From positions 1-36,453 of the forward strand of contig JAAXJC010000028.1 of the NCBI GenBank assembly GCA_012270045.1: DNA of 36,453 nucleotides. Reading direction: 5' to 3'. Position numbers and translations under genes: made by a program. This DNA is from Luminiphilus sp. (GTDB lineage Bacteria; Pseudomonadota; Gammaproteobacteria; Pseudomonadales; Halieaceae). Shown here one piece after another: positions 8,164-11,848 of the stretch (the first letter of the stretch is position 1; each line of letters starts with the position of its first letter). The notes under the pieces are model-generated. The model searched no databases. It was not told the DNA's origin and saw nothing but the letters and a program-made list of their open reading frames with translations.

Positions 8164-9002
8164 TGCTTCCAGCGACGGTTGCTCCATAACCAGTCATCGG
8201 GGCATTCCCTGATCGATGCCTCGGTGAGCTCCGCGTAGCGCTGCAAAATACCGTCCTCCCCCATCTCGACCGGATCGCGGCAAATTTCAATCAACTCTAT
8301 GTCGAAGTAGCCCCGCCGCAGCCGCCGGCACCGGGCATAGGCCACCGGGAACCCTGTTGCCTTTGCCAGGGTCGCCGCCCCGGAGAAAAAAGCGGTCTGG
8401 CGATTCAGGAAATGAGTGACGTAGACGCGCTCCCGTGCTCCCGGGGACTGATCGGCGAGCATGTAAATCAACCGGGGTGTGCGCCTGTGGCGAATAAAAT
8501 TTCTGGCCGTTTCTCGCATCTCGATAGCGCTCGCGCCAAAGCGACCCCGGGCCCGGAGACTGAATTCATCTGCCGCCGCGCTGTGCAGGCGTTTGTAGAC
8601 AAAAGCCATGGGCATGTCGTACTGGGCCGCCGCGCGATGCAACATCCATTCCCAGTTGCCCTGGTGGGCGAGCATGACCAGAACCGACTGCTGCCCCTGT
8701 TGGCTCAGGTCTTCCAGCAATTCCGGGTTACTGATGGTCATTCGGTCGGTGAAGAAGGATTTCGGCTGCCTGGACCCAGAAATAATCTCAACAGTCGTAT
8801 CACAAAGGTTGCCGTAGAAAGTTCGCCGGATGTCCCTGCGCCAGTGCTCAGATGCATCGGGAAAGGCCTGTTTCAGATTGTCTTCAACGGTTTGGCGTCG
8901 GTAACGAATGACATGTTGCAGCAGCACAGCCACGCAGTTGGACAGTCCGTAAAGCCAGGCCAGGGGCAGCCTGGCAAGCCCGCGGTACAGCAGCCCGGTC
9001 AT
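8088..9002 (-). CDS. Lipid A biosynthesis acyltransferase (LpxL/HtrB family)
   Basis: About 304 residues. Members of this lysophospholipid-acyltransferase-like family sit on the inner membrane and add a secondary acyl chain to Kdo-lipid A from acyl-ACP. The catalytic HX4E box is HQGNWE (His113, Glu118). The motif around YMLADQSPGARERVYVTHF and the FFSGAATLAKATGFPV block also fit. I start at ATG 9002, which overlaps the stop of the LRR gene (ATGA); the longer frame reaching 9083 is inside that gene. The C-terminal tail is a Ser/Glu-rich low-complexity stretch encoded opposite the end of the metallo-hydrolase gene. Which secondary position and chain length it uses cannot be determined, so I give no LpxL or LpxM symbol. 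Confidence 0.9.
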   Translation of the reverse strand: MTGLLYRGLARLPLAWLYGLSNCVAVLLQHVIRYRRQTVEDNLKQAFPDASEHWRRDIRRTFYGNLCDTTVEIISGSRQPKSFFTDRMTISNPELLEDLSQQGQQSVLVMLAHQGNWEWMLHRAAAQYDMPMAFVYKRLHSAAADEFSLRARGRFGASAIEMRETARNFIRHRRTPRLIYMLADQSPGARERVYVTHFLNRQTAFFSGAATLAKATGFPVAYARCRRLRRGYFDIELIEICRDPVEMGEDGILQRYAELTEASIRECPDDWLWSNRRWKHQVPTAADNEGSASSSSESQSKPES

Positions 9003-9502
9003 GGTCCGGAACCCTCTGACGCCAGGCAATGGTTGGGCAGGGTCAGTTGGGCCACGCCGTCCAGGAGCCCGGGCCTGGGGCACTGCAAGTCGGTATTGCC
9101 AGCCAGGTCCAGCAGGGTTAGCTGTGCCAGTTGTCCCAGCGGCACGGGGTCCACCACCTCGTTGTCATCCAGCCAGACCATTTCCAATTCACCAAGCTGG
9201 CCCAGCTCTACAAGATTGCGGATGCGGTTGTCGGAAAACTTCAGCTGCGTCAAAGCGGCGAACAGTCCCAGCCCCTCCAGTGATGCAATGCCCGCGCTGC
9301 TACAGTTGAGAACACGGAGCTGCAGCGGGTCAGCTATTCGCTGATCACCGATGTGTTGACTCAAGCAGCGCTGCAAAGCCGGATCTGCAACCTCGAAGTC
9401 ACTGAACGGCCGCACGGGGCCATAGACCTGTCGGTCATTGACCGTCACATCATAATTCTGGCAGGCCGCCAACAGCAGGCACAGCAACAGGGCGCGACGC
9501 AT
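8999..9502 (-). CDS. Small leucine-rich-repeat lipoprotein
   Basis: A 167-residue lipoprotein. The ATG at 9502 has a strong purine-rich Shine-Dalgarno (GGAGAGGAG) five bases upstream and opens a lipoprotein signal with lipobox LLAAC (Cys14). The longer frame to 9583 is rejected. From about residue 65 the chain has four consecutive 22-residue leucine-rich repeats of the LxxLxLxxNxIxxLxxLxxL kind (for example LTQLKFSDNRIRNLVELGQ), like the SDS22/internalin class, followed by a partial capping repeat ending in Cys. LRRs are binding modules; the ligand is unknown. The stop overlaps the acyltransferase start (ATGA), so the two are co-translated. It is probably anchored in the outer membrane, but no protein partner can be named. 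Confidence 0.82.
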   Translation of the reverse strand: MRRALLLCLLLAACQNYDVTVNDRQVYGPVRPFSDFEVADPALQRCLSQHIGDQRIADPLQLRVLNCSSAGIASLEGLGLFAALTQLKFSDNRIRNLVELGQLGELEMVWLDDNEVVDPVPLGQLAQLTLLDLAGNTDLQCPRPGLLDGVAQLTLPNHCLASEGSGP

Positions 9503-9560
9503 GGGGACTCCTCTCCGGCTCCACGTATAACGCCAACAAGATTTATCCTGACACACAGCT

Positions 9561-10673
9561 ATGGTGCAAAAAACCGGAGACACGAAACGGCGGAGTGGCG
9601 AGCCTGGCGCCGCGAGTCGGCAACTGCTTCAGCAGTTGGAGTCCTCGCTGCAGAAACACTGGCGGCTGGGTCAGAATATGGTGCTCTGCTGGGCCCCGGA
9701 TCCGCGCGGGGTCCTCACCCTGATGGTGCCCCATTACTTTTTGGGCAACCTAACTGCTGCAGACGGGGATGAATCGGGGGACAAGGAGGCTTTCGTCAGT
9801 GAGGTGATTGGCGGTTCACGACTCAAGAGCCACCAGGAAATTTTCCGCATTGCCCAGCGGCTGGGTGTCTCAACCAGCTTTATCAAACTCGACAGTGTCC
9901 TTGGGGAGGATCCGGAGACCCTGGCGGCAGCAGATGCAATGATTTCGAGTTACGGCATCAGCTATGTGGCGTCCCGGGCAGTACTGCTGTTCGATATTGC
10001 CGAATTTTCATTGTTCACTCCCTTTGAGCAAGCCAGCCAGTTGAATTCCCTGTCCTATTCAATGAACTCTGCCTACAACAAGCTGCAGCGTCAGGGAGTC
10101 GATGTAAACTTTGCCCGCACTACCACCGGTGACGGCTACTACGTCTGGAACCGTGATCTCGGTCCTTACCCCGACCTCGATCTGCTGTCCTTTCTGCTAC
10201 TGATCCTCATTGACAATGCGGTGGCGCGGGATCGTGCCTCCGGCAACACCGTGCCATTAATTCGGTCGGCGTTTCATATTGGCAGTCACTACGAGCTGTT
10301 TCAGGCCGAGGGCGTGAATCCGTCGGTGTTCAGTTACATCGTCGGGGATGTCACCATCAAATTGGCGCGGATGTTGGACAATGCCAGGGCGGGGCAGATT
10401 GTTCTGGGCGAGTTTTATGCCGCCCTGCCAGACCAAGACAGCCCCTGCGGCCCCGAGGAATTCATCAGCAGGGCGATTGATGAGCTCAATGATCTCGCCA
10501 AAATCAGGATAGCGGACCAGCCCCTGCGATCCATCGAACGGGTTGCCGGCGCGGAGCAGCACCTGGAAAAACTGACGATTGTCGACAAGCACGGCCTTGA
10601 GTTGCAGGCGCGCAACTTGGAGTTGGCAGTAGCTCTGGGGGATGATCGTTTTCAGGTGGGTAATTCGGGCTGA
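9561..10673 (+). CDS. Class III nucleotidyl cyclase-like protein, catalytic site incomplete
   Basis: A 370-residue protein with no signal peptide and no clear membrane segment, apart from a hydrophobic helix within the fold (LLSFLLLILI). Residues 138-290 follow the class III adenylate/guanylate cyclase pattern: AVLLFDIAEFS with metal-type Asp145, RTTTGDGYYVWN with Asp191, FHIGSHYELF, and YIVGDVTIKLARML followed by GQIVLGE. In active cyclases the fourth block reads GDAVNLAAR, giving a transition-state Asn and Arg. Here the Asn position is Ile266 while Arg270 remains, so ordinary cyclase activity is doubtful. The first 135 residues resemble no sensor domain I know. It starts 58 bases from the divergent LRR gene, and rsmJ follows two bases after its stop. 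The start ATG lacks a Shine-Dalgarno. Confidence 0.7.
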   Translation: MVQKTGDTKRRSGEPGAASRQLLQQLESSLQKHWRLGQNMVLCWAPDPRGVLTLMVPHYFLGNLTAADGDESGDKEAFVSEVIGGSRLKSHQEIFRIAQRLGVSTSFIKLDSVLGEDPETLAAADAMISSYGISYVASRAVLLFDIAEFSLFTPFEQASQLNSLSYSMNSAYNKLQRQGVDVNFARTTTGDGYYVWNRDLGPYPDLDLLSFLLLILIDNAVARDRASGNTVPLIRSAFHIGSHYELFQAEGVNPSVFSYIVGDVTIKLARMLDNARAGQIVLGEFYAALPDQDSPCGPEEFISRAIDELNDLAKIRIADQPLRSIERVAGAEQHLEKLTIVDKHGLELQARNLELAVALGDDRFQVGNSG

Positions 10674-10675
10674 CG

Positions 10676-11461
10676 ATGACGAATAGCGAGCCGATCTCTG
10701 CGGGTATGGGGTCCGGGCCTGTCGCCGTCGTGCCGGCGGAGCGCGGCGCCGAAGCCCGGGCGCGGGCCGTTGCCCGGCAGCTCGATGTTGCGGTGCAGCG
10801 GGATAATCACCAGACGGCATCCGTCATCCTTTATGTGGGCCATGATGATCTCTGGTTGCAGCGGGCCGACGTTGCCCAGGCAAGTCCTGTGCGGGTTGAT
10901 TTTGCATCGCCCAGACTGCAGCACCGGCGTCGCAGTGGACACAACGAATTGCTGGGTCGTGCCGTGGGTGTCAAGGCGGGAGAAAGTCCGCGGGTAGTCG
11001 ATGCCACGGCGGGCCTGGGCAGGGACGCCTATGTACTCGGCGACCTCGGATGTGAGGTTACGCTGGTAGAGCGATCACCGGTATTGGCGCTGTTGCTGGC
11101 CCATGCGCTGGAGCGGGCGCGCATCAGCAGCGTGGAATCGGTGCGGGCTGCGGCGGCCAGGATGTGCCTCAGACAGGCTGACAGCTGCTCCCTGGCGGTG
11201 CCGCAGGGCGTGGTGATTTACCTGGATCCGATGTTTTCCCAACGCCGGGGCAGCGCCGCTGCGAAGAAAGATTTGAGTGTTCTGCAGGCTCTGCATTCGG
11301 CCACAGATAACGAGGACAGCCAACTGTTCGAATGGGCAATGGCGCAACCCGCCCGGCGGGTGGTGGTCAAGCGCCCTTCCAAGGCGCCGCCACTGCAGCA
11401 GCGGCAACCCTCACATGCAATCATGGGTAAGGCGATCCGGTTCGATGTTTATGCGCGATAG
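10676..11461 (+). CDS. rsmJ: 16S rRNA (guanine1516-N2)-methyltransferase RsmJ
   Basis: A 261-residue cytosolic SAM-dependent methyltransferase modifying G1516 of 16S rRNA. The SAM-binding motif I is VVDATAGLGRDAYVLGDLG (from about residue 107) and the acidic end of motif II is VTLVERSP. The catalytic-type motif is YLDPMFSQRRGSAAAKKDL (from residue 182), which closely matches the DPMFPxRxxSAxxKK pattern of the family. VVVKRPSKAPPL near the end is also characteristic. The length is close to E. coli RsmJ (250 aa). The start follows the cyclase-like gene by two bases. The N-terminal 20 residues are divergent, and an internal ATG at residue 11 is an alternative start. Confidence 0.94.
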   Translation: MTNSEPISAGMGSGPVAVVPAERGAEARARAVARQLDVAVQRDNHQTASVILYVGHDDLWLQRADVAQASPVRVDFASPRLQHRRRSGHNELLGRAVGVKAGESPRVVDATAGLGRDAYVLGDLGCEVTLVERSPVLALLLAHALERARISSVESVRAAAARMCLRQADSCSLAVPQGVVIYLDPMFSQRRGSAAAKKDLSVLQALHSATDNEDSQLFEWAMAQPARRVVVKRPSKAPPLQQRQPSHAIMGKAIRFDVYAR

Positions 11462-11470
11462 GAGCACACT

Positions 11471-11848
11471 GTGACAGGCCTGGTACTAGAGGGAAGGGAC
11501 GCTACCGGGGACCTCGTTCTCGACAGCGTGGTCAGGGATACGGTCACTGAAGGACAGGCCTGTGACCGCATCAGGCAGTGTTCCGGGTTGGCCCGGGTAA
11601 CCCTGCGGTTGATCCCGGGTGAGGTCGCTTCAGCATTCAGCCCCGACCAGGAGTTGCGTTTGTTGAACGCCTGGGTCCGTTCTTCATGGATGATTGTGCG
11701 CTCACTCTCGGTACTCGACCAACACCGGGAGGCGGAAGTGATCATTGAAATTCCGCAGCACGATTCACCGCTGACCGAAGGGGTGGTCTCGTTCTGGTCA
11801 GCGATGCGGACAGCGGGAGTCCCCATCGACCGGATTGCCCGATACTGA
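11471..11848 (+). CDS. Hypothetical protein, 125 aa, unrecognised
   Basis: I do not recognise this protein. It starts with GTG 11471, preceded by GGAG seven bases upstream and nine bases after the rsmJ stop, so it is probably the last gene of that operon. There is no signal peptide or membrane segment. The chain alternates predicted strands (LVLEGRDATGDLVLDSVVRD, RVTLRLIP, EAEVIIEIP) with a helix around RLLNAWVRSSWMIVRSLSVL, suggesting a small alpha/beta cytosolic domain. Two Cys residues (CDRIRQC) are spaced CX5C. The base composition resembles its neighbours and the ribosome binding site is good, so it is likely a real gene rather than noise. It ends 12 bases from the convergent dapE. Confidence 0.6.
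   Translation: MTGLVLEGRDATGDLVLDSVVRDTVTEGQACDRIRQCSGLARVTLRLIPGEVASAFSPDQELRLLNAWVRSSWMIVRSLSVLDQHREAEVIIEIPQHDSPLTEGVVSFWSAMRTAGVPIDRIARY

Follow-up and report, generated by a model that had tools for sequence, protein, structure and literature searches.

Whether a class III nucleotidyl cyclase can do without its transition-state asparagine is the question raised by a gene in the window analysed here, a 36,453-nucleotide stretch of DNA from Luminiphilus sp. Active class III cyclases are commonly recognised by this asparagine, whose presence or absence serves to class a member as alive or dead; an enzyme that has lost it is generally assumed to be crippled in catalysis. The original prediction described a cyclase-fold protein that retains both metal-type aspartates and the arginine of the catalytic pair, with an isoleucine in place of the asparagine. 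A family with a fixed Ile or Val at this position and the rest of the core catalytic residues retained constitutes a natural test of the asparagine rule in scattered gammaproteobacterial lineages.

Gene product and predicted structure

The gene is an intact ORF with an ATG start, encoding a protein of 370 amino acids on the forward strand (Table 1). Neither Pfam nor NCBIfam contains a match for this protein, and the Pfam search gives no hit to PF00211 (Guanylate_cyc), a family that one relative matches with an E-value of 0.0069. Sequence searches of the PDB with either the protein or the family profile return nothing relevant, no match to plasmid or viral carriage is found, and no description of the family was found in the open-access literature. 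The cyclase-fold protein family is thus far undescribed, yet strongly conserved.

The class III assignment comes from structure prediction, with weak support from sequence. An AlphaFold2 model built from 15 sequences has a mean pLDDT of 82 and a pTM of 0.81. When this model is searched with Foldseek, the catalytic domains of class III nucleotidyl cyclases rank first, and a second structure aligner matches such domains across residues 130–358. No unrelated fold is the best match, in keeping with the fold originally proposed. Alignment of the family with canonical cyclase profiles by hhalign is collinear and low-scoring, and pairs Ile266 with the Asn of the GDxVN motif and Arg270 with its Arg. 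Since this alignment is collinear but weak, the residue correspondence is based on motif spacing and a predicted helix (residues 263–273) together with the alignment, and on this basis Asp145, Asp191, Ile266 and Arg270 sit where they had first been placed. A one-residue register shift, which would bring the invariant Thr265 near the Asn position, is possible; Arg270 would then be out of step.

The N-terminus had been described as unfamiliar and free of any known sensor domain, and this description holds. Its roughly 132 residues contain no known domain by sequence in Pfam and NCBIfam, and comparison with the PDB gives no credible fold among the matches listed (best Foldseek E-value 0.57, best Z-score 2.6), which is no proof of a new fold. 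Residues 1–134 were also predicted alone from 51 sequences, giving a confident model (pLDDT 91). In a profile search of 274 genomes, the domain is confined to the cyclase-fold family, and from this sequence distribution the N-terminal part is judged to be a family-specific accessory domain.

Table 1. Coordinates of the cyclase-fold gene, its domains and key residues, and the gene downstream. Residue counts refer to the alignment of 104 family members.
Feature	Position	Strand	Support
Whole gene, stand-alone class III cyclase-fold protein	9561..10673	+	ORF, translation, relatives, model
N-terminal domain, residues 17–132, family-specific	9609..9956	+	Model pLDDT 91; no credible PDB match
Predicted class III nucleotidyl cyclase-fold domain, about residues 133–358	9957..10634	+	Foldseek E 3.6e-9; Z up to 15.2
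Asp145, first metal-type aspartate	9993..9995	+	104/104 kept
Thr187, base-selecting Lys position of ordinary cyclases	10119..10121	+	Ser 83, Thr 18 of 104
Asp191, second metal-type aspartate	10131..10133	+	104/104 kept
Tyr259, second base-selecting residue position	10335..10337	+	Phe 73, Tyr 26 of 104
Ile266, transition-state Asn position	10356..10358	+	Ile 98, Val 6, Asn 0 of 104
Arg270, transition-state arginine position	10368..10370	+	104/104 kept
Asp342-Lys343-His344, invariant triplet, last hairpin	10584..10592	+	104/104 kept
rsmJ, 16S rRNA methyltransferase, downstream neighbour	10676..11461	+	PF04445 E 1.2e-60

Active-site residues across the family

Conservation was counted in an alignment of 104 family members from scattered gammaproteobacterial families. 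Asp145, Asp191 and Arg270 are invariant, as are Gly190, Gly192, Tyr194, Trp196, Val264, Thr265 and the Asp342-Lys343-His344 triplet, whose lysine may, judging by its position, correspond to the Lys that binds phosphate in class III enzymes. The retention of both aspartates and the arginine without the asparagine is therefore not confined to the window protein: position 266 is Ile or Val in all members, whereas ordinary class III cyclase domains from the same class have Asn in 26 of 26 cases. Because the three catalytic-type residues never vary while position 266 is uniformly aliphatic, this pattern is not due to chance. Whether Ile266 is fixed among homologues had been posed as a check, and the answer is a choice of two residues, Ile in the great majority and Val in the remainder.

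The base-selecting positions 187 and 259 are non-canonical, with Ser or Thr at the former in 101/104 members and Phe or Tyr at the latter in 99/104. These residues fit neither the usual ATP nor the usual GTP signatures of class III enzymes. Because the Asn and base-selecting positions do not match, the protein does not qualify as an ordinary class III cyclase, though its predicted fold is the same and it may well work like one. Several invariant residues of the family (Tyr194, Trp196, Tyr244, Glu245, Thr265, Asp342 and His344) lie outside the canonical cyclase motif, and could point to another reaction on an NTP, such as hydrolysis or nucleotidyl transfer, instead of cyclisation; the closest folds among the matches listed are nevertheless cyclases, and the chances of such a reaction appear slim.

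Distribution, descent and selection

A search of 58 relatives finds full-length copies of the gene in 15, and copies that are broken or eroded in three further members of the genus. Positive genomes number 9/369 in an even sample of the class and 5/398 in a sample of the phylum, each count taking in the genome of the window itself. Scanning 84,980 species genomes yields 422 relatives, and the best 80 of the 422, those nearest the query, are mostly from Woeseiaceae. Since Pfam misses the family, these members are likely to be missing from counts of cyclic-nucleotide signalling in bacteria.

Two long outgroup branches and the remainder of a tree built from 38 representatives share the Asn loss. 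The two deep outgroups, at approximately 30% identity, have Val and Ile at position 266. Given that these outgroups and the 104 aligned members all lack the Asn that every ordinary cyclase examined keeps, the loss, as judged from sequence, most likely occurred when the family arose. The original observation is true of the window protein but not peculiar to it: the loss would be ancestral to the whole conserved family, a family trait and not a local lesion, which is a stronger statement than the one first made.

Close pairs have dN/dS values of 0.014–0.110, which points to strong constraint on the gene. A decaying pseudogene in the window's genome was considered and rejected, the ORF being intact and dN/dS among close relatives being 0.01–0.11.

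In two genomes of the genus (G018:C5, L017; G020:C82, L018/L020), the gene has been eroded in place at the site syntenic with 9561–10673, where only short remnants lie between a leucine-rich repeat (LRR) lipoprotein-like gene and rsmJ, which is intact. The copy in a third genome (G002; L016, L019) is full-length but interrupted by frame breaks. The remnants in G018 and G020, at the same site and beside an intact rsmJ, indicate that some species can do without the gene. Two copies are present in genome G068: a typical one (L025) and a very divergent paralogue (L032, G068:C9) that still keeps both Asp residues and the Arg and has Val at the Asn position.

Genomic context

The operon partners originally named were an rRNA methyltransferase and an unknown small protein. 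The former is RsmJ, whose gene begins 2 nt downstream of the cyclase-fold gene and is probably co-transcribed with it, yet without a functional link. The latter is a 125-aa ORF (11471–11848, forward strand) between rsmJ and dapE, which has no family match in Pfam or NCBIfam. Its matches in the nearest relatives reach only about 32%, and it therefore evolves much faster than its neighbours. On the other side is the small LRR lipoprotein-like gene (8999–9583, reverse strand), kept across the genus. The ORF start listed for it overlaps that of the cyclase-fold gene; translation probably begins further downstream, at the MRRALLLCLLLAAC signal.

Within the genus, the gene order is acyltransferase, LRR lipoprotein-like gene, the divergently oriented cyclase-fold gene, rsmJ and dapE. 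In Woeseiaceae, the neighbours, named by reading their sequences, are threonine dehydratase, FAD-linked oxidase and ilvD genes, a setting of amino-acid metabolism, divergent from the cyclase-fold gene, with pheST/infC beyond, and elsewhere outside the genus the gene is found near unrelated genes. Because the linkage to rsmJ is conserved only within the genus and the neighbours differ outside it, the linkage is probably incidental. While the partners were correctly recognised, they carry little functional information, and the operon as a clue to function was rejected.

At least one ordinary PF00211 cyclase is found in every family-positive genome tested, 15/15 in the relatives set and 13/13 in a second set (one genome being common to both), against a baseline of 38/56 in the even class sample; genome size and descent confound this comparison. 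The co-occurrence fits a role in cyclic-nucleotide signalling, and it also fits a heterodimer, in which the family protein would provide the metal-binding Asp pair and an ordinary class III cyclase the Asn, the Arg and the base-selecting residues. The C1 half of mammalian adenylyl cyclase is the model for such an Asp-supplying subunit. The family gene of genome G417 adjoins an ordinary class III cyclase gene in convergent orientation (G417:C49, L030:485–1390), but this adjacency is a single instance. Moreover, Arg270 is invariant and would be needless in a C1-type subunit; a heterodimeric arrangement seems improbable. Three genes of the window's genome also encode a cNMP-binding domain, and one of them lies about 1.1 kb away from the ordinary cyclase domain of that genome.

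Proposed function

The reading preferred here, with a probability of roughly one half, is a nucleotidyl cyclase that binds metal and an NTP, recognises its substrate in an altered way and is probably a homodimer. An NTP and two metal ions would be bound at the interface of a head-to-tail homodimer, Asp145 and Asp191 coming from one chain and Arg270, perhaps with Lys343, from the other. An aliphatic residue would lie beside the ribose where the Asn stood, as Leu may do in the Xanthomonas campestris protein XC_0250. The enzyme would still cyclise nucleotides, at a modest rate or with an unusual preference of base, and the N-terminal domain may be its regulatory or dimerising part.

The predicted fold argues for this reading, as does, at the level of sequence, the invariance of the Asp145/Asp191/Arg270 set down to approximately 30% identity. 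The strong purifying selection also counts in favour of a cyclase, as the metal ligands should be lost from a protein that no longer binds. The presence of ordinary cyclases in all family-positive genomes tested is consistent with a cyclic-nucleotide context, and XC_0250 offers support by analogy: because that protein is active with Leu at the Asn position, a missing Asn alone does not mean inactivity (PMC3770947). On the other side are the Asn of all 26 ordinary cyclases and base-selecting residues suited to neither ATP nor GTP, which by sequence comparison speak against a cyclase, and no cyclic-nucleotide receptor is linked to the gene.

The main rival is a pseudocyclase, which would bind an NTP and metal, change conformation and regulate a partner while making no cyclic nucleotide. 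The family-wide absence of Asn, the altered base-selecting residues and the dispensability of the gene in G018 and G020 all suit such a protein, as does the mycobacterial Mclx3, a described protein without the same Asn (PMC4452763). However, the other catalytic-type residues are all invariant, which is stricter than binding alone requires, and the activity of XC_0250 weighs against it as well; overall, a pseudocyclase is considered somewhat unlikely. The original prediction had named both a nucleotide-binding regulator and a cyclase with altered chemistry; the XC_0250 result removes the lost Asn as sufficient grounds for inactivity (PMC3770947), and the cyclase is the more probable of the two. 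A more ambitious form of the cyclase reading is improbable: the active site would be rebuilt, with an aliphatic residue for the Asn and Ser/Thr and Phe/Tyr in the base pocket, the product would be an unusual cyclic nucleotide, and control would lie with an N-terminal sensor domain of a previously unknown kind.

Comparison with known systems

The closest systems are class III cyclases of the PF00211 type (mycobacterial Rv1625c, P. aeruginosa CyaB and the eukaryotic guanylate cyclase 3et6), with which the predicted catalytic domain shares its fold (Z 13.8–15.2), the two metal-binding Asp residues, the N-x3-R spacing with the Arg kept, and the helix bearing positions 266 and 270. The family differs from them in having Ile or Val for the Asn, altered base-selecting residues, no Pfam match, an N-terminal domain of its own and a long family-specific insertion between residues 245 and 258.

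Pycsar PycC pyrimidine cyclases likewise have the class III fold, kept metal-binding Asp residues and non-canonical base-selecting residues (PMC11224242). No PADLOC PycC model matches the 15 family members scanned, whereas ordinary cyclases do match these models. A class-wide search for true PycC proteins, intended as a comparison for the Asn position, gives only weak matches that seem to be ordinary cyclases. No cyclic-nucleotide-sensing effector is recognised in the conserved neighbourhoods, whose genes were searched in part against family libraries. A role in defence was rejected, since there is no relevant PADLOC match and weak CsaX/Cas8a matches look like chance.

Mclx2 and Mclx3 of M. 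tuberculosis contain cyclase domains without the transition-state Asn, but unlike the family described here they are multi-domain proteins with AAA/NB-ARC and LuxR parts (PMC4452763). XC_0250 of X. campestris, compared by its published description, is a precedent. It keeps the two metal-binding Asp residues, has Leu157 for the Asn and Ala161 for the Arg, makes cGMP in vitro, loses activity in the L157A mutant, and is linked to the cGMP receptor gene XC_0249 (PMC3770947). The aliphatic residue in place of Asn and a non-canonical base-selecting residue are shared with the present family; in contrast, the Arg is kept here, the cyclase domain of XC_0250 is N-terminal (residues 1–220), and the residue spacing differs. 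The XC_0250 precedent makes a missing Asn less surprising in the family described here.
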